Assembly (NCBI GenBank): GCA_001304015.1
Contig: LJUY01000076.1
Coordinates: 1 to 8,988, forward strand
DNA length: 8,988 nucleotides
Direction: 5' to 3'
DNA from: a candidate division Zixibacteria bacterium SM23_81
GTDB taxonomy: Bacteria > SM23-81
Shown one piece after another: positions 456-8,372 of this stretch. The notes below the pieces were generated by a model, which did not search any database, was not told where the DNA came from, and saw nothing but the letters and a program-made list of their open reading frames with translations. A program made the position numbers and the translations under genes. The number at the start of each line of letters is the position of its first letter. The stretch's first letter is position 1.

Positions 456-3400
456 CTAGAAAAGTGCGCGGTAATAGGGCGGTTTCTCCATGGATTCTGG
501 CATCAACGCCAATTTGTCATGTTCCCTCTTCACGTAGAGCTCAGTGCCCCAAATTCGAAGCGAGTGCTGGGACTCACTTTCGCTCCCGCAGGTGAGGATC
601 CGTGGTCCCATCGTGAGACAATCTCTTGTCTCAAGTCTGTGCCCACCCAGAATTTTATACTGGGGGAAAGACGACTGAAGGTCTATGACCACAAGGTTTC
701 CCTGTGATCCGAAAGAGGCGCAGGACTTCAGGCCCAGGATAATTCTTCCATCAAAGTATACGCTCATAGCATTCACGGCACCGATATCGCTGAGGCGGAA
801 TGTTTCACAGGCCCCGCTCTGGAAATCGACGATGCTGATTTCTGCGCTGCTGCTGTTTCTCTTCCTTTCCAACTCATCGACAATCCCAGTCCCCAAAACC
901 ACTCTCCCATCGGGAAACAAACCCACTTTGCTCATCGGCGCCTCTAGTCCCAAAAGGACTTTTACCTTTCGGTCCTTAGGGTCCCATACACGCAGCTCCC
1001 CATCGTCACTTCCCCAGAAAACTCTGCCATGACGATCGACGGCCATGGCACATACAGGGCTTTTTTGCCCCCTCAGGACCCTCATCTGTTGACCTAGGAC
1101 ATTCCACAGTCTTATAGTCCCATCTCGATGTCCGGTGAGTATTTGGCCATCGCGATATGAAGAGACGGAACAGACGGGGGAATCATGTCTCCCCAGCTTT
1201 GTCACGGTGTTTTTTTGAAACGTGGTGATCCTCAGCTCCCCCTCGCTATCGACCGAACAGATGTCCCCACCCATAACGACCAGGTGCTCCGCTGGTCTCT
1301 CATGGGCACGATAATAGTAAAGTCGATCATTAAATCCGGTCAGGATCCCAACACCGCCATCATAGCCACAGCACGCGATTTGCCCTTGGGTGTAAAAGGC
1401 AATCCGATTGACCTCCAAATCGGCTAGCTTGATCACCTGCAGCAGATTGGGCTGCTCATCGAGGTCTTCATTCAAAATCCTAGAAAACGTTGTCTCGTGC
1501 GGAGAAAAGTGCGAGACTTCGGCTCGAGAAATTGTCCGGCTGTCCACAGAGATCTCTTGCCAGCGCGCTGAGAGAGTCTGGGCATAAATTCTCAGTGGCC
1601 TGGTATCTCTCTCAAACCTGCCGATCCGAATTTGGTCGCCCCATGTGTCCACTTTTCTCCTCTGGAAAACCTCACGGATCTCTTCTCTGCTCAGCCGAGA
1701 GGAAATCGAATTATCGAGATTGTATATCAAAACAGCACCTTCCCGGTAAAATTTCGTTTCCTCGATGACCGGTTGCTCAACGAGGGAAAGACGGATCTTG
1801 ACACTTTCCAACGCACCTTCCCGCTCCTCCAGGTTACTTCTCCTCGTAGAGAACGTCGTTCGGAACTTGACCAAGATATCCAGATAGCCCTTGTCGTAGA
1901 AGGTGCCCACTATTTGATGAAAGTAAGGCTCGTCCCGCCAACCGTCCAGGATAATCAATCTCGCATGGGCATGATCTTGCATGAAATCATCAAAAAACTC
2001 ATCGGGATTGTCCCCCTTCTCATCCAAGGGATAATCCTGATAATAGATCTGATCGACGTGTCTTTTCAGCCAAGTTAAGCCCAGTATCCGATTCAATATT
2101 CCCATGTGTGCGGGATGATCCCTTTGCAGATACACTATTTCAGTCTCTTGTAAATCGCCAAATCCATGCGCTATGGATTCGCAGAAGTAGGTCTTGCCTG
2201 TGCCTGAGTCTCCGGTCACAGCCATGACCACTGGTTTCTTTATTGAAACCAGGTGTAAGAGAGTCTCCGAAAGCTCATATAATCCCGTTCTGCTGGGTTT
2301 GAGGGACAGGAGGGCGGCTGTGGTAAAATTGTGGAGATAGAGATTGTGAAGGAAATTGGGCAAGTCCAATTTCCTTAAAGCCACGGCCGCTTCTTCAAAT
2401 ATCTCGCTATCTTCTGCCGTGAGCAATTGCATCAACGTGGTGATGATGCCTGCGTCTATCCCCTTATACCTTTTCTTCTGGCCATGCCCAATGGCCCCCA
2501 TTGCCCAGGCTAAGGAGATCTTCATCTCCCGGTCAAGGTTTTGCGAGAATCTGACCAGCGCAGGTATGACCTCAATGGCGTCGGGGCCCAGTTTGCCCAA
2601 CGCCCAGATGGCCTCCTGCTTTTCCGAAAGCATGGGTTGGTCATATCCACAAGAACCCTCGCCCAATTGAACGTGAATACTGTCAGGACCTTCCAGCACA
2701 TCCACGAGATGACGTGAAGCCCCCTTCTGGCGAAGATTCCCCAGGGCATATATCAAATTGCATCTGATATTCGTATATCCAGGATCACAGGTCTCCAGGT
2801 AGCTCAAGAGCGTCTTTGTGGAGCGAATGTCCTTGAGCTCTCCTAAAATGCTCGAAGCTTCGTATTGAAGACCGCTGGAGATGTCGATGTCCGGATTAGT
2901 GAGTAATTCCAGGCATGGTCGAGTAAGAGCTGCAGGAACTGCGGTTAACCTCTTCATGACCGAGCTTATTTGTTCGTGGATGACATCGGAGATAAGGCTT
3001 TTTTCTCTGGCCCCCTTGAGCTTGGTCAGCAAATCATCAATTTGACTCCTGACCTTTTCCTCCTCTGCGATGTGAGAACTCACTTGGTCGAAAACACTCT
3101 CTTTGTCCTTCTTCAGCAGATGAATCGTATGGAGGAAAACCTTCATCTGCGAATTGCTCCTCAGCGTCCTTTTGACATCGCGCAGAAATTCTTCGGCTTT
3201 GTCCTGACATCTGCTTCGCCAAGCTTTCCTCACAGAATCCCAATCGGCCACATAAGCCTCTGCGTTCCTTTTATCGGCATCGTATTCGATAAGACGATAG
3301 AGCACTTCAAAGACGATCAATAGGCCATCGTTTTTCGCTGTCTTCTCACCTAAAATTCTGCCAAAAACCTTATTGGTCACCTCCCAAGAGCTTCCATCTC

Positions 3401-3623
3401 TTATAAATGGGTACGTCGCACTTCTGAGCAGCTCTGCGTCCTCTTTATATTGCTTGGCCTTCCAGATTCGGAACCACAATTCGTTGGATATCCTGTCGCG
3501 CAGGGTTCGGGGATTTCCCGCCCATGTGCCCTGGGGACTTAAATAGACTAATCCGCTGGGATCAAAATCCTCCAGAAAACCCGTTGCATTTTCAAGCAAA
3601 TCTCCAAAGTTCAGCCTATTCAT
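456..3623 (-). CDS. HEAT-repeat / uridine-kinase-like P-loop / WD40-propeller protein
   Basis: A predicted soluble protein of 1055 residues without a signal peptide. Residues 1-230 are uncharacterised, largely helical and charged. Residues about 250-435 hold roughly five HEAT-like helical repeats (for example QEAIWALGKLGPDAIEVIPAL). Residues about 463-650 form a P-loop domain with Walker A GDSGTGKT at 471-478 and a hydrophobic strand ending in Asp, LIILDG, at 556-561. The order of motifs resembles uridine kinase/phosphoribulokinase-type enzymes: a hydrophobic strand ending in D/E-G, then LDILVKF, an arginine-rich stretch (STRRSNLEER), then a Pro-x-x-Glu-Thr-Lys-x-Tyr segment (residues 618-626) like the lid end of Udk. 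Residues about 735-1028 hold WD40-type blades, probably seven, clearest at 815-841 and 855-881 (GTIRLW, GELRVWD). The substrate is unknown; the P-loop domain may be a switch rather than an enzyme. The ATG overlaps the upstream regulator stop by 8 nt, indicating translational coupling and a shared function. The gene ends in an amber codon. Confidence 0.9.
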   Translation of the reverse strand: MNRLNFGDLLENATGFLEDFDPSGLVYLSPQGTWAGNPRTLRDRISNELWFRIWKAKQYKEDAELLRSATYPFIRDGSSWEVTNKVFGRILGEKTAKNDGLLIVFEVLYRLIEYDADKRNAEAYVADWDSVRKAWRSRCQDKAEEFLRDVKRTLRSNSQMKVFLHTIHLLKKDKESVFDQVSSHIAEEEKVRSQIDDLLTKLKGAREKSLISDVIHEQISSVMKRLTAVPAALTRPCLELLTNPDIDISSGLQYEASSILGELKDIRSTKTLLSYLETCDPGYTNIRCNLIYALGNLRQKGASRHLVDVLEGPDSIHVQLGEGSCGYDQPMLSEKQEAIWALGKLGPDAIEVIPALVRFSQNLDREMKISLAWAMGAIGHGQKKRYKGIDAGIITTLMQLLTAEDSEIFEEAAVALRKLDLPNFLHNLYLHNFTTAALLSLKPSRTGLYELSETLLHLVSIKKPVVMAVTGDSGTGKTYFCESIAHGFGDLQETEIVYLQRDHPAHMGILNRILGLTWLKRHVDQIYYQDYPLDEKGDNPDEFFDDFMQDHAHARLIILDGWRDEPYFHQIVGTFYDKGYLDILVKFRTTFSTRRSNLEEREGALESVKIRLSLVEQPVIEETKFYREGAVLIYNLDNSISSRLSREEIREVFQRRKVDTWGDQIRIGRFERDTRPLRIYAQTLSARWQEISVDSRTISRAEVSHFSPHETTFSRILNEDLDEQPNLLQVIKLADLEVNRIAFYTQGQIACCGYDGGVGILTGFNDRLYYYRAHERPAEHLVVMGGDICSVDSEGELRITTFQKNTVTKLGRHDSPVCSVSSYRDGQILTGHRDGTIRLWNVLGQQMRVLRGQKSPVCAMAVDRHGRVFWGSDDGELRVWDPKDRKVKVLLGLEAPMSKVGLFPDGRVVLGTGIVDELERKRNSSSAEISIVDFQSGACETFRLSDIGAVNAMSVYFDGRIILGLKSCASFGSQGNLVVIDLQSSFPQYKILGGHRLETRDCLTMGPRILTCGSESESQHSLRIWGTELYVKREHDKLALMPESMEKPPYYRALF

Positions 3624-4431
3624 CGGTCAATGTCACCAGATTTTTCAAATCTTCCTTGAGCCTCATCGGCTCAATCAGCAGCATCCACCCAGATCTATAT
3701 GGGTCTCGCATCACTTGAGAATAGTCTCTTTTCAACTCTCGATTGACCGCGATGATCATACCACTCACAGGCGACCAAAGCCTATGGACATTCCCATTGG
3801 CGTCGGTGATTTTCAAGCACACCTCTCCCTGATTCACTATCTCGTATTCATCTGGGAACTCTACGGAGGACAGGGTTTTCACGGTCATCAGATAGATGTC
3901 GTGAATGCCTATGCGCACGGTGCCATCATCCTCCACCTTGGCCCATGAATGCTCGGGAATACAATAGAGCCTTTCCGGGACCAGAGTCTCTGCCGCTTCT
4001 CCTTCTTCCGGCTCCACTTCCTCCAACTCCGCTACGGAGGGGATGCTTTCTTCGTACAGCTGGCTTCGCTGCAGAGCACGCGATACCAGGCTTCGCAATT
4101 CTTTGGGCGTGAATGGCTTCGGTAAATAGTCGAAGGCCCCCAACTTCATGGCCTGCACCGCCGTCTTAATGGACGGATACCCGGTGATCATGATCACCGT
4201 GAGCTCCGGTCTTTTCTCCTTGACAACCCTCAAGAGGTCCATGCCGCTCATGCCCGGCATCATCAAATCTGCGATGATGACATCATAGTTGTGTTTCCCC
4301 TCCTTGGCCAGGGCCTCTTCTCCGCTGAGCGCTATATCCACCGTGTATACATCTTGCTCCAGAGCGCTGGATACGCTCTTGCAGACCGGTATCTCGTCAT
4401 CCACGACCAGGACTTTTGCCTTGCGTTCCAA
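3616..4431 (-). CDS. Response regulator with degenerate glycine-cleavage-H-like domain (second paralog)
   Basis: With the TTG start used here the protein is 271 residues. The N-terminal receiver domain has the acidic pair D11/D12, phospho-acceptor D55 (IIADLMMPGMSG), T83 and K105 (YLPKPFTP), the full set for phosphotransfer. An acidic linker leads to residues about 153-265, which match the H-protein fold: YCIPEHSWAKVE, VRIGIHD, WSPVSG, N-x-EL and DPYRSGW. The lipoyl-lysine position is glycine (G213, in ANGNVHR), so lipoylation is not expected. No helix-turn-helix, GGDEF or HD domain is present. A GTG nine codons upstream (4456-4458) is also open. I prefer TTG because GGGAG lies exactly 7 nt before it, as before the ATG of the neighbouring paralog, and the two proteins then align from residue 1 with identical active-site numbering. 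It follows its paralog after a short gap (121 nt to this TTG) and overlaps the downstream gene by 8 nt. Confidence 0.9.
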   Translation of the reverse strand: MERKAKVLVVDDEIPVCKSVSSALEQDVYTVDIALSGEEALAKEGKHNYDVIIADLMMPGMSGMDLLRVVKEKRPELTVIMITGYPSIKTAVQAMKLGAFDYLPKPFTPKELRSLVSRALQRSQLYEESIPSVAELEEVEPEEGEAAETLVPERLYCIPEHSWAKVEDDGTVRIGIHDIYLMTVKTLSSVEFPDEYEIVNQGEVCLKITDANGNVHRLWSPVSGMIIAVNRELKRDYSQVMRDPYRSGWMLLIEPMRLKEDLKNLVTLTDE

Positions 4432-4552
4432 TTCTTTTCTCCCAACGACCGGGGTCACGCCTTTTCCCCAGGTACGAGAACATATGCCAGCCGCTCAGGT
4501 CCTAACTCGTCGAGTGGCTCTCCACCGCTTCCAATATATCCTCAAGCCTGGC

Positions 4553-5353
4553 TTATTCGAGGACAAGGGGCGCCAGATTTTTAAGGTCATCCTCTAAGCT
4601 CGCCGGCTTGATCAACAGCAACCAGCCAGATCCATACGGATCTCTCATGACCTGGGAATAGTCCTCTTTGAGCTCCTCATTTATCGAGATCACCTGACCA
4701 CTCACTGGCGACCACATTCTATGGAGATTCCCACGGGCATCCACCACCCACAAACAGGCATCTCCCTGTCCCACCTTCTCGTTCTCGTATGGAAAATCGA
4801 TGGAGGAAATATCTTTGATGGTCATCAGAAAGATATCATGAACTCCTATGCGCACCGTGCCATCGCCCTCCACTTTTGCCCAGCAATGGTCTGGAATGCA
4901 ATACAGATTTTTGGGCAGACCAGGCTCTGCGCTCTCTTCCTCCCCCGGCTTTTCTGCAGAAGCGATTTTTTGCTCATAAAGCCGTCTTCTCTCCAGGGCC
5001 CGGGACACAATGCTGCGCAATTCGTCTGGTGTGAATGGCTTCGGTATATAGTCAAAGGCTCCCAACTTCACGGATTGCACCGCTGTATCCATGGTGGGAT
5101 ACCCGGTGATCATGACCACCACGACTTCTGCCCTTTTCTCCTTTACGGCCTTCAAGAGATCCATGCCGCTCATGCCCGGCATCATCAGATCAACAAGCAT
5201 GATGTCATACTCGTTTTCCTCCTCCTTCCTGAGAGCCTCTTCTCCGCCCAGGGCCGTGTCAATGAGGCGGCCTTCAGCCTCCAGTGCACTGGATATGCTT
5301 CTACAGACGGGCAGCTCATCATCGACGACCAGAATCTTCACCTTGGCTTGCAT
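4553..5353 (-). CDS. Response regulator with degenerate glycine-cleavage-H-like domain (first paralog)
   Basis: A 266-residue protein with a complete receiver domain: D11/D12, phospho-acceptor D55 (IMLVDLMMPGMSG), T83 (MITGYP) and K105 (YIPKPFTP). A short acidic linker is followed, from about residue 149 to 263, by a domain with H-protein hallmarks: YCIPDHCWAKVE, VRIGVHD, WSPVSG, N-EEL and DPYGSGWLL. The residue aligned with the lipoyl-lysine is G208 (DARGNLHR), so the swinging-arm function should be lost. The C-terminal domain is about two thirds identical to that of the next gene by hand count; the two arose by tandem duplication. The ATG follows a strong GGGAGGTG ribosome site that overlaps the sensor kinase stop, 3 nt away, so the kinase is the expected phosphodonor. 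With no DNA-binding output, it probably acts through protein contacts. Confidence 0.92.
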   Translation of the reverse strand: MQAKVKILVVDDELPVCRSISSALEAEGRLIDTALGGEEALRKEEENEYDIMLVDLMMPGMSGMDLLKAVKEKRAEVVVVMITGYPTMDTAVQSVKLGAFDYIPKPFTPDELRSIVSRALERRRLYEQKIASAEKPGEEESAEPGLPKNLYCIPDHCWAKVEGDGTVRIGVHDIFLMTIKDISSIDFPYENEKVGQGDACLWVVDARGNLHRMWSPVSGQVISINEELKEDYSQVMRDPYGSGWLLLIKPASLEDDLKNLAPLVLE

Positions 5354-5356
5354 GTT

Positions 5357-7348
5357 TCACCTCCCGGTTTTTGAGTTCTGCCCTCTGGTGTTATTCGCCG
5401 GGAGAAGGATGGTGACCGTCGTCCCCTTTTCCATTTGGCTCTGCACCTCTATCCTTCCCCCGTGCTGTTGCACGATCCCATAGCTCACGGAGAGCCCCAG
5501 CCCAGTGCCCGTTCTCTCCTTGGTGGTAAAGAAGGGGTCAAAAATTTTGCCGATGTTCTCCTGGGAGATACCGCAACCGCTGTCTCGAAAACTCACAGCC
5601 ACCAGTTGATCTTCCGACAATATCCTTGAACTGATGAACAAGTCGCCTCCAGTGGGCATCGCCTCCAAGGCATTCAAAATCACGTTGGTGAAGACCTGTT
5701 CTATTTTATTGCCATCTATCATGATGTCCGGCAAGGCAGAATCGAGTGCTTTATGGATTCTGACTTTATGAGCCAGGGCCTCACTTCTCAAGAGCAACAG
5801 AGTTTTGTCGACCACTTTATTGACATCGGTGAGCCTTTTCTCAGGTTGAGTCTGTCTGGAAAATTCCAAGAGCCCCTTCACGATGGTGCTGCACCGAGCC
5901 GTTTCATCGGTGATCAATTCAAGATTTTCCTTAAATCGGTCGTCGCTCTTCAACTTTTCGGCGATCAGATGGCTGTTGATCAATATGGACGTCAGGGGGT
6001 TATTGATTTCATGGGCTATTCCGGCGGCCAATTTCCCCAGGGAGGTCAACTTCTCCGACTGGATAAGCTGATCTTGTGTCGCCTTGAGCTCCTCGGTTTT
6101 TTCTCTGACTTTGTCCTCCAAAGTCCTGGTCAACATGTGATAGCCCTCGGTGGCTTTCTGGAGCTCCTCGGTCATCCTGTTGAAGGAAGCGGCCAGCTGA
6201 CCCATCTCGTCCCGCGATTGTATGGGCAGCCGATGGGAGAGGTTTCCATCAGCGACTTTCTCCGTGGCGAACAATAATTGTCTCACCGGCCTGACGACTT
6301 TTGCGGTGGTGAAATATGCGATGATGGAGAGAAGAATCACGCTGAGCAAGGCGATTCCAAGAAAGATGAATAACACGCGATTCCTCAGATCAAGGTAGGG
6401 GGCCTCCAGCATGCCCACATACAGCATACCGATGATCTCTCCCTGCAAGCTCTTTATGGGCTCATAGGCGGTGATATACCAATCATTGACCACAAACGCC
6501 CGACCGATCCAGGGTGCGCCCTGCCCAATCACTTGATCATAGACCTCTTCGGATACACGCGTCCCGATGGCTCTGGAGCCATCCTCCCTCAACACATTGG
6601 TGGCGATACGAAGATCTCCCTGAAAGATGGTCGCCGTCCCGATGTCTTTCCCCTGATAGGTCTCGCCCCGATAAACGATGTCCTTAACCCGATCGACGAT
6701 CTCATAGTCACGATTCAGCAATTTGCCTCCCAACAGAATACCTATGAGGTCACCATGGTAGTCGTAAACAGGCGCTGCGGCTATGATCATCATCCCGGAA
6801 GTTTCTTCGGCCTCTGGCCTGGGCTTAGCCTTTGGGGTTGGAATCAACTTCATCCTGGCCTGGCTGGCAAGGTCTCCACCCTCTTTTTGAAGCTGCTCTT
6901 CAGTGATAATTTGGGTGGAGACAATCTCTCGTTCATTGATCAGAACGTACTCGATGATATCATTGTCCAGTGGATCGCCGAAGAGGTCTGGTCTTCGAGC
7001 TCTCACTAAAACACGTCCTTCTCCGTCGATCAGGGTCAGGATATCCAGGGATTCAGACTCCCTGATCTTCTGCAACTCTCTCCATAAACGCTCCCGATCG
7101 TTCTTCGATACGGCATCCTTCATGAAAAATCTCACCGCCGTTAGTCGGACCACATCCTTGATGTTCTCGCTCTGTCCTTTGTATACCTCCCATGCTGAAT
7201 TGAGGTCGAGCCTCACCTTGCCTTGAGCCTGTCGGATAATGGTGTTGCCGATGAGACGTATGCCCACGAAGGCGGATAGCAAGACGCCCACTAAAATGAC
7301 GATCGAGAAACTGAGGACTAACCTTGTTCTTATTGAAATATGGCGCAT
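5357..7348 (-). CDS. Membrane sensor histidine kinase (Cache-HAMP-HisKA-HATPase_c)
   Basis: With the ATG start the protein has 663 residues. TM1 spans about residues 10-32. A periplasmic region of about 285 residues follows, and its last part has the Cache signature (ATIFQGDLRIATNV, GTRVSEEVYDQV, WYITAYEPI, GMLYVGMLE). TM2 is at about 325-347, HAMP at about 347-400, then a coiled-coil linker (ELKATQDQLIQSEKLTSLG). The H-box GIAHEINNPL has phospho-His H446. The ATP-binding domain has the N-box (NVILNALEAM, N559), G1 DSGCGI (589-594), F-box FDPFFTTK (603-610) and G2 GTGLGL (614-619), so it should be active. It has no PAS or attached receiver domain. A TTG eight codons upstream is open but lacks a ribosome site, whereas the chosen ATG has CGGAG 7 nt before it. 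Cache domains usually bind small ligands; the ligand here is unknown. It should phosphorylate the two regulators immediately downstream. Confidence 0.95.
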   Translation of the reverse strand: MRHISIRTRLVLSFSIVILVGVLLSAFVGIRLIGNTIIRQAQGKVRLDLNSAWEVYKGQSENIKDVVRLTAVRFFMKDAVSKNDRERLWRELQKIRESESLDILTLIDGEGRVLVRARRPDLFGDPLDNDIIEYVLINEREIVSTQIITEEQLQKEGGDLASQARMKLIPTPKAKPRPEAEETSGMMIIAAAPVYDYHGDLIGILLGGKLLNRDYEIVDRVKDIVYRGETYQGKDIGTATIFQGDLRIATNVLREDGSRAIGTRVSEEVYDQVIGQGAPWIGRAFVVNDWYITAYEPIKSLQGEIIGMLYVGMLEAPYLDLRNRVLFIFLGIALLSVILLSIIAYFTTAKVVRPVRQLLFATEKVADGNLSHRLPIQSRDEMGQLAASFNRMTEELQKATEGYHMLTRTLEDKVREKTEELKATQDQLIQSEKLTSLGKLAAGIAHEINNPLTSILINSHLIAEKLKSDDRFKENLELITDETARCSTIVKGLLEFSRQTQPEKRLTDVNKVVDKTLLLLRSEALAHKVRIHKALDSALPDIMIDGNKIEQVFTNVILNALEAMPTGGDLFISSRILSEDQLVAVSFRDSGCGISQENIGKIFDPFFTTKERTGTGLGLSVSYGIVQQHGGRIEVQSQMEKGTTVTILLPANNTRGQNSKTGR

Positions 7349-7417
7349 GGAGCACTCCGATATCTCGCGCAACTCGGGATCACACTCTGTTTCTGAGAAA
7401 AAGTACGAGATGAAACA

Positions 7418-8077
7418 TCAGAATGTGGTCTTCAGCTTGGCACCCACGACATGATAATCAATCCAGTCTTCGCCTTTCTTGCTCGACTGCCAGAGATAAT
7501 AGATATCGACCCCAAGATAGTGCACAATCTGTCCCTTGAAGCCACCGGTGAAACGGTGCCGATAAAGTCCGCTTTCATCTAAAATGAAGAATATTTCATC
7601 TGCCAGATAGGGGCGAATTTCCCACCTGGTCCACTTCAGGGGCATCAGGGATGACAGATTATTTCTATACATCCAGATATTCTCCCTCTCCTCCCTGATG
7701 CGGCGCTCAATCCTATGTCTGTTTTCAAAGCCAAATTCTCGCCAGCTCCATTTGAACGTACCGTTAAGGTGCGGTCTGTTTTCCTCCTTCCAATCGCCCT
7801 CCCTTTTCTCGTAAATCTGCGCGATATCACACCCCAAATAAAACCAAGGCCGTGCTTTCCACGTAACGCCGAAGTCCGTATATCGATAATAGAGCTCTGA
7901 CATACTTTCGCCCAACCTGAACTGCTGTTCCAACCCCGCTCTCCAGGACTCGGACAGATTCACCTGAATGCTTGCCGAGCTCCAGAACTGCCAATCCCCA
8001 TCTTCATAGGCGAAGGCGACCTTTGCGAGTAACGCGGCCAGGCAAACGCTCATTCCAATTTTGATGAACTCTCTCAT
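7418..8077 (-). CDS. DUF2490-like outer-membrane protein
   Basis: A 219-residue secreted protein. It starts with a signal peptide (basic residues, a hydrophobic core from about residue 7, and AFA before a likely cleavage at residues 23/24). The mature part is rich in Trp, Tyr and Arg with alternating amphipathic strands (WRAGLEQQFRLGE, ELYYRYTDFGVTWK, FENRHRIERR, RWEIRPYLADEIFF). It ends in Phe (KLKTTF), as many outer-membrane beta-barrels do. Spacing of the strands and the GLEQQFR and NRHRIERR motifs suggest the DUF2490 family, which has no established biochemical role. It is the first gene behind the strong promoter and lies 69 nt before the sensor kinase, so it may supply or modulate the signal that the kinase reads. 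The ATG used sits 11 nt after AAGGAG; a GTG four codons upstream (8087-8089) is also open but would touch the ribosome site. Confidence 0.85.
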   Translation of the reverse strand: MREFIKIGMSVCLAALLAKVAFAYEDGDWQFWSSASIQVNLSESWRAGLEQQFRLGESMSELYYRYTDFGVTWKARPWFYLGCDIAQIYEKREGDWKEENRPHLNGTFKWSWREFGFENRHRIERRIREERENIWMYRNNLSSLMPLKWTRWEIRPYLADEIFFILDESGLYRHRFTGGFKGQIVHYLGVDIYYLWQSSKKGEDWIDYHVVGAKLKTTF

Positions 8078-8304
8078 CTTATCATCCACTCCTTGAGGAA
8101 AATAGAGCAGGTGGACGAAAAATTCAAGCTAGAACTAAGCGAATCACAGGCAGTGGAACTTCAATATGCTATGGCTTATGTTCAGCACTTTCATTGTTCT
8201 GACTTTTGTCCATGATCTATGACATAAGCACCATGCATCTGCCAATTTCCAAAAAACCCGTTCCCAGCTTTTTTTAAAAGAATGGTGGGTGAATTCTCTT
8301 CTGC
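8078..8304 (-). promoter_or_regulatory. Long 5' leader with nested inverted repeats
   Basis: If transcription starts about 7 nt after the -10 box, the first gene has a leader of roughly 225 nt with no substantial ORF. Two consecutive stem candidates are visible in the transcript. The first is CACCAT (8282-8287) with ATGGTG (8229-8234), enclosing an A-run and a T-run of six that can also pair. The second is GCTTATGT (8222-8229) with ACATAAGC (8174-8181). A 15-codon ORF starting ATG at 8236-8238 and ending TGA at 8191-8193 lies across the second stem; its ribosome site is weak. I recognise no known riboswitch class. The ribosome site of the first gene (AAGGAG) lies near 8090. Confidence 0.35.
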
Positions 8305-8310
8305 ACTACA

Positions 8311-8339
8311 ATTATACTCTAATTAGAGTACTTTGTCAA
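8311..8339 (-). promoter_or_regulatory. Perfect consensus sigma-70 promoter of the signalling operon
   Basis: On the minus strand TTGACA (8339-8334) is separated by exactly 17 nt from TATAAT (8316-8311). Both hexamers match the sigma-70 consensus at all positions with optimal spacing, so the unrepressed promoter should be very strong. It faces the DUF2490-like gene and the rest of the operon. The preceding gene's terminator T-run abuts the -35 box. Such a strong promoter ahead of signalling genes implies repression, and a palindrome occupies its spacer. Confidence 0.88.
8315..8330. promoter_or_regulatory. 16-bp perfect palindrome, probable repressor operator
   Basis: TACTCTAATTAGAGTA is a perfect inverted repeat (8 bp per arm, no spacer). 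It covers most of the promoter spacer and the first two bases of the -10 box. A dimeric regulator bound here would block RNA polymerase, so the likely effect is repression. The cognate regulator is not identifiable from the sequence; candidates include dimeric winged-helix families or the RHH protein encoded at the other end of the locus. Confidence 0.7.
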
Positions 8340-8340
8340 G

Positions 8341-8372
8341 AAAAAAATACATCTCTGAGGCTTCAGCCTCAG
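8341..8372 (-). terminator. Intrinsic terminator after the radical SAM gene
   Basis: CTGAGGC and GCCTCAG (8355-8361, 8366-8372) form a perfect 7-bp GC-rich stem with a 4-nt loop. On the minus strand a run of seven T (8347-8341) follows after a 7-nt gap. The gap is longer than ideal. It lies between the radical SAM stop and the -35 box of the next operon, and would insulate the two transcripts. Confidence 0.65.

Follow-up and report, generated by a model that had tools for sequence, protein, structure and literature searches.

STAND ATPases that carry WD40 repeats (APAF-1 type) have a P-loop domain followed by a propeller, and Raptor, the mTORC1 scaffold, has a helical solenoid followed by a WD40 propeller. 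The P-loop kinases (adenylate/UMP kinase, PSTK, phosphoribulokinase and TTM1) have a Walker A motif, a DG-type Walker B strand and an Arg-rich LID after strand 4. There are also two-component systems in which a Cache-HAMP-HisKA kinase is paired with a regulator that does not bind DNA and has a canonical receiver with an intact phosphorylation site. The locus described here resembles each of these in part. It was found in an 8,988 nt stretch of DNA (the window) from a candidate division Zixibacteria bacterium, SM23_81, and includes a gene for a 1055-aa protein with, in order, HEAT repeats, a P-loop domain and a WD40 propeller. As in the APAF-1 type, the P-loop domain precedes the propeller and the protein may be a signalling switch, but it lacks a conserved Walker B Glu and its HEAT repeats are N-terminal. 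The predicted fold and the motifs listed above are shared with the P-loop kinases. However, the domain sits between the HEAT repeats and the propeller, it is encoded in a two-component operon, and its sequence similarity to these kinases past Walker A is not significant. The two-component genes differ from those of the systems above in having a GcvH-like output domain without a conserved lipoyl lysine, and a dedicated gene for a kinase-like scaffold. Neither the HEAT/P-loop/WD40 architecture nor receiver-GcvH regulators were found described in literature searches; PMC7159879 covers other propeller/NTPase systems. The 1055-aa protein is apparently a well-conserved, undescribed signalling partner with a kinase-like core. 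Our main reading, to which we give a probability of roughly 0.6, is that a two-component pathway uses it as its dedicated output component, with docking, switching and a redox setting included.

Genes of the window and layout of the 1055-aa protein

The genes lie on the minus strand in the order radical-SAM-like end, DUF2490 gene, histidine kinase, receiver-GcvH regulators 1 and 2, 1055-aa gene and ribbon-helix-helix gene. Pfam matches above the cut-off were found for the histidine kinase, both regulators, the DUF2490 protein and the 1055-aa protein. The features are as follows.

8988-8412, minus strand: radical-SAM-like gene, 3′ part (named from the longer copy on contig C87)
~8311..8339, minus strand: candidate sigma-70 promoter, TTGACA-17-TATAAT, with a 16-bp palindrome, TACTCTAATTAGAGTA, over the spacer and -10 (sequence reading)
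7418..8089, minus strand: DUF2490 protein, first gene of the likely transcription unit (Pfam DUF2490, 87.9 bits)
5357..7372, minus strand: sensor histidine kinase, Cache_3 - HAMP - HisKA - HATPase (Pfam)
4553..5353, minus strand: response regulator 1, receiver and GcvH-like (Pfam Response_reg 94.7, GCV_H 65 bits)
3616..4458, minus strand: response regulator 2, receiver and GcvH-like (Pfam Response_reg 102.7, GCV_H 60.5 bits)
456..3623, minus strand: HEAT - P-loop kinase-like - WD40 protein, 1055 aa (ORF, Pfam, full-length homologues)
2934..3623, minus strand: N-terminal helical region, residues 1-230 (AlphaFold secondary structure)
2334..2933, minus strand: HEAT-repeat solenoid, residues 231-430 (Pfam HEAT_2 and model helices)
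1614..2306, minus strand: P-loop kinase-like domain, residues ~440-670 (conservation, model, fold searches)
2190..2213, minus strand: Walker A, GDSGTGKT, residues 471-478 (alignment of 36 sequences)
1941..1958, minus strand: Walker-B-type strand, LIILDG, residues 556-561 (family conservation)
1818..1850, minus strand: Arg-rich LID-like motif, STRRxNLExRE, residues 592-602 (conservation, 35 sequences)
549..1445, minus strand: seven-bladed WD40 propeller, residues 727-1025 (Pfam WD40, 28 strands, structural alignment)
337-125, minus strand: small ribbon-helix-helix gene (weak Pfam match)

The open reading frame at 456-3623 had been singled out in an earlier note made from the sequence alone. It is present, though encoded on the minus strand, with its ATG at 3621-3623 and its stop at 456-458. 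The order HEAT, P-loop, WD40 proposed there was recovered both by Pfam (HEAT_2, 40.3 bits vs a curated cut-off of 27.7; WD40, 45.2 bits vs 27) and in an AlphaFold model of the full protein built from 9 homologues. A seven-bladed propeller had also been expected; residues 727-1025 of the model hold 28 strands (7 blades of 4), which aligned with the WD40 propellers of PRPF19, Gbeta and LIS1 at Z 27.5-28.8 (rmsd 2.4 Å, ~285 residues). Raptor gave the best full-length Foldseek matches, at a TM of ~0.24, so that the likeness is one of layout only. To our knowledge, Raptor has no P-loop domain at the corresponding position.

There are 36 distinct homologues, 31-82 % identical, in bacterial metagenome-assembled genomes (MAGs) of several candidate phyla. 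Complete homologues are of similar length and align end to end, and no other domain architecture was seen among them. With the P-loop region as query, homologues turned up in 2 of 385 other sampled genomes, a dephospho-CoA kinase (CoaE) match aside, and in 4 of 82 and 3 of 10 genomes of the two phyla concerned. A single-protein query against genome contigs gave no match; with a 9-sequence profile, 30 loci were recovered from ~85,000 species genomes, most of them in Candidatus Aminicenantes and others in WOR-3/Stahlbacteria, Edwardsbacteria, Eisenbacteria and Acidobacteriota. In plasmids, phages and viral contigs, only unrelated P-loop matches were found. Three homologues (L034, L042 and L047) are on contigs labelled Heimdallarchaeota and Clostridiales that are probably misbinned; the neighbours of L047 match those of an Aminicenantes locus (L061) in sizes and order.

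Relative to a second copy in the same assembly (see below), dN/dS is 0.17 overall, 0.063 in the P-loop region and 0.33 in the N-terminal residues 1-230, which are the least conserved part of the protein. Judged from these sequence comparisons, the gene is real and not a chance product, because it has 36 distinct homologues, an invariant Walker A motif and the dN/dS values given above.

Fold and family of the P-loop domain

The P-loop region has the lowest entropy of the whole protein in the homologue alignment. The earlier note had read a Walker A motif, GDSGTGKT, at residues 471-478, and this is present, with the ATP-binding residues G471, D472, G474, G476, K477 and T478 invariant in 36 of 36 homologues. 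The strand ending in DG (LIILDG, 556-561), LDILVKF (581-587) and the Arg-rich stretch (588-602) were likewise located, as was a Pro...Tyr segment at 618-626, although this reads PVIEETKFY, one residue more than had been quoted. D560, G561 and D564 are invariant across the family, position 565 is variable (R/E/K/D/Q), and S592, R595, N597, E599, R601 and E602 are kept in 35 of 35 sequences. Strand 2 ends in R501-D502, and the order R501-D502, LIILDG, Arg-rich segment is nearly invariant in the family. However, this order is generic to P-loop kinases.

The P-loop domain was also modelled alone (AlphaFold; 34 homologous sequences, 256 residues), with a pLDDT of 79, a pTM of 0.79, core blocks at 86-96 and low confidence in the LID region (residues ~590-623). 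The leading Foldseek matches in the PDB were adenylate kinase 5, UMP kinase, PSTK, thymidylate kinase, phosphoribulokinase and gluconate kinase (E 1e-4 to 1e-3), and nearly all of the best 50 were P-loop kinases or related SRP/HypB-type GTPases. With VIA-align, the Clp1 polynucleotide kinase (Z 9.0), the TTM1 kinase domain (7z67, Z 8.7) and NRK1 (Z 7.2) were found, with SRP-type GTPases close. Such scores indicate a moderate similarity of fold (Z up to 9.0, TM 0.3-0.5) and, together with the low-confidence LID, count against the main reading. Matches among viral models were mostly deoxynucleoside, dTMP, polynucleotide, uridine or sugar kinases or SRP-type GTPases, and some were annotated as AAA or helicase. 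From the model, it is a fair statement that the domain has a kinase-type P-loop fold in the broad sense and not an ASCE fold, the class being assigned from the structural matches.

One alternative is that the protein is a variant STAND/NACHT-type switch, in which ATP binding leads to oligomerisation and the propeller is a sensor arm, as in APAF-1. STAND proteins classically have a propeller C-terminal to the P-loop domain, LIILDG-xx-D is similar to the DGxDE Walker B of NACHT, and weak Pfam matches to NACHT and AAA_14 were found in 32 and 33 of 34 members, respectively. However, the NACHT match in the 1055-aa protein scores 15.0 bits (vs 26.7) and covers Walker A only (query-region residues 42-66), and position 565, where a STAND protein would have its catalytic Glu after Walker B, is variable. 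No NACHT, NB-ARC or KAP structure was among the best 50 PDB matches, which were mostly kinase-type, and no STAND-type structure, with a winged helix behind the NTPase, was among the matches listed for the domain. The earlier view that the domain departs from the usual STAND type is thus upheld by the variable E565 and by these 50 matches. We consider a NACHT-type switch unlikely, and keep it in consideration because of the DGxxD motif.

The same note had gone further and likened the domain to uridine kinase. The P-loop-kinase-like fold stands on the model matches, but a specific phosphoribulokinase (PRK)/uridine kinase (Udk) identity is not supported by the Pfam, profile and motif evidence. 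A true member of this family, phosphorylating a nucleoside or sugar, would explain why Walker A is followed, in matching order, by a strand 2 that ends in D502, a strand 3 with DG and an Arg-rich LID. It would also fit the PRK structure 9qkp at Foldseek rank 6 (E 4.8e-4), the TTM1 and NRK1 alignments, and the NCBIfam phosphoribulokinase model, which weakly touches 34 of 34 members. Yet Pfam PRK (PF00485) scores 12.7 bits in the 1055-aa protein, under the cut-off of 22, and is confined to positions 1-29 of 196, a score that dozens of unrelated P-loop proteins from these genomes also reach. Past Walker A, the P-loop region is covered by no Pfam or NCBIfam model, and HHalign across the whole domain aligned Walker A alone. 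With Walker A left out, profile-profile comparison gave P values of 0.3 for PRK/Udk, 0.2 for CoaE and 0.24 for NACHT, none significant. The LID motif RxxRRxxRD...RG and the C-terminal P....YAD, taken from the invariant columns of 8 PRK/Udk sequences, are absent; the family has STRRxNLExRE and PxIExTxFY instead. PRK, TTM1 and NRK1 are among the best structural matches but level with other P-loop kinases and SRP GTPases, and adenylate/UMP kinase and PSTK fit equally well. Membership of the PRK/Udk family therefore appears improbable.

A degenerate scaffold, in which the P-loop binds ATP merely for stability and the protein tethers partners, would suit a chain of which more than half is taken up by two large interaction modules (HEAT and WD40), but it is very unlikely given the dN/dS of 0.06 in the P-loop region, the lowest of the protein, and an invariant set of Walker A, D560, R595 and R601 typical of active NTPases.

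The sole match of the P-loop profile outside the family was the CoaE noted above, another P-loop kinase (in genome G280). KaiC/FlaH matches to the 1055-aa protein were partial and local. There is no support for a role in defence, as the PADLOC matches were weak and partial (best LmuB, E 1e-5, with the best stretch near Walker A).

The histidine kinase and receiver-GcvH genes

The stop of response regulator 2 overlaps the start of the 1055-aa gene by 8 bases, an arrangement consistent with the translational coupling of these two genes that had been proposed earlier. The note had missed both the regulators' GcvH-like domain and the conservation of kinase, regulator and 1055-aa gene as a unit. 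Homologue loci were collected by similarity to the 1055-aa protein alone. A receiver-GcvH gene was found (tblastn) directly upstream of the 1055-aa homologue in 33 of the 33 loci with room for it, and a Cache-type histidine kinase gene no more than 3.5 kb away in 27 of 28 testable loci. Over 21 loci, the pairwise distances of the 1055-aa protein correlate with those of the regulator (r = 0.94) and of the kinase (r = 0.945), both with a Mantel p of ~0.0005, and all three distance matrices correlate at 0.93-0.95, so that the three genes are co-inherited. Because the homologues were found with the 1055-aa protein alone, the near-universal linkage and the correlated distances are strong evidence, at the level of sequence, that kinase, receiver-GcvH regulator and 1055-aa protein form one functional unit.

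The receiver site is intact, with the acidic pair, the phospho-Asp D64, T92 and K114 present in 38 of 38 sequences. The GcvH-like domain aligns with the true GcvH of the genome, which has K at the lipoyl-lysine position. In the response regulators this position is G, N, R, H or K (Gly in response regulator 2). Since it varies, the domain is unlikely to be a lipoate carrier and more likely to serve in docking.

Contig C87 (L003) of the same assembly carries a collinear copy of nearly the whole window (7.9 kb at 79 %; 75 % for the radical-SAM-like gene). The contamination estimate for the assembly is 4.05 %, and the copy may stem from a duplication or from a related species whose contig was binned with this genome; its origin has no bearing on the main conclusions. 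The DUF2490 gene has so far been met only in the window's own family, in the C87 copy and as a remnant match in L102, a locus of genome G003. In this genome, which belongs to the same family, the kinase and a receiver-GcvH gene are kept (L102, 3028-7342) and the same ribbon-helix-helix and TauE genes adjoin, but neither a gene for the 1055-aa protein nor a second regulator is found before TauE. That G003 keeps the pair alone suggests that the 1055-aa protein is a separable output part. The persistence of the pair also counts against the reading of that protein as a dedicated output.

Between the radical-SAM-like gene and the DUF2490 gene, a perfect 8-bp hairpin is followed by T's at ~8340-8372. 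The promoter-palindrome arrangement at 8311-8339 also precedes the C87 operon and, less perfectly, the G003 operon, and because it recurs there it is a plausible operon start. Palindromic promoters of the TACTCTAATTAGAGTA type are common to the signalling operon and a downstream TauE/SafE gene, both in C87 (~4696-4738 and 13045-13088) and in L102 (~2700-2740 and 6411-6454). This suggests a common repressor of the signalling operon and TauE/SafE, perhaps the nearby ribbon-helix-helix protein.

Proposed pathway and redox neighbourhoods

In the pathway that we infer, a membrane-bound histidine kinase that carries its Cache domain outside the cytoplasm would phosphorylate the receiver-GcvH regulator, which has no DNA-binding domain and would use its GcvH-like domain as a docking module. 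The regulator would then dock on the HEAT or the WD40 part of the 1055-aa protein, and docking would switch the kinase-like P-loop domain between states. This domain would either transfer a phosphate from ATP to a small molecule or protein, or bind and hydrolyse ATP as a switch, with the propeller holding the target. The likely setting is the control of anaerobic redox or hydrogen metabolism, which the pathway probably tunes. A more specific proposal, that the regulator, acting through a lipoate-free GcvH-like domain and bypassing DNA and the known enzyme domains, activates a distinct kinase-type P-loop enzyme flanked by a HEAT arm and a propeller, is possible but put forward tentatively. If true, it would represent a new class of two-component output, modifying redox or hydrogenase machinery post-translationally.

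The three genes would represent a signalling unit that is so far undescribed and broadly inherited among uncultured anaerobes (Aminicenantes, WOR-3/Stahlbacteria, Edwardsbacteria and others). Receiver-GcvH regulators gain a concrete partner and a candidate mechanism; the literature searched offers no other explanation of their output. Should the P-loop domain prove to be an active kinase, bacteria would combine a eukaryote-like plan of solenoid and propeller with a metabolic-kinase-like core.

The common theme of the gene neighbourhoods is suggestive of redox metabolism. Hydrogenase-type genes adjoin about a third of the loci (11 of 37), those sampled being the NiFe large subunit, small subunit and maturation protease (Pfam). 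Hydrogenase genes are not adjacent at some two thirds of loci, among them the two copies in the window's own genome, whose [NiFe] genes are on another contig (C70); this counts against the main reading. Control of hydrogenase as a universal role was rejected, as such neighbours are found at 11 of 37 loci only. Hdr/FlpD-type genes and Fer4_22/NAD-binding subunits are adjacent at one locus (L044) and a Rex-like regulator at another (L031), and at L061 peptidase, phosphate-transport-like and Rrf2 genes are found instead.

More remote receiver-GcvH genes (34-39 %) have kinases of their own and are next to genes for NrfD, cytochrome c7 and a DsrK-like Fe-S protein. At L103-L110, the regulators are often in tandem, some with an apparent N-terminal membrane segment, and their neighbours are NrfD, multihaem cytochrome and Dsr-like redox complexes; these loci apparently represent a broader, undescribed redox-linked receiver-GcvH family. 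GcvH-like domains without receivers are also found in a redox cluster of the window's own genome (L073-L075, contig C73), where three GcvH-like proteins, two of them with apparent membrane anchors, neighbour a Tat-type Fe-S protein and an NrfD-like protein.
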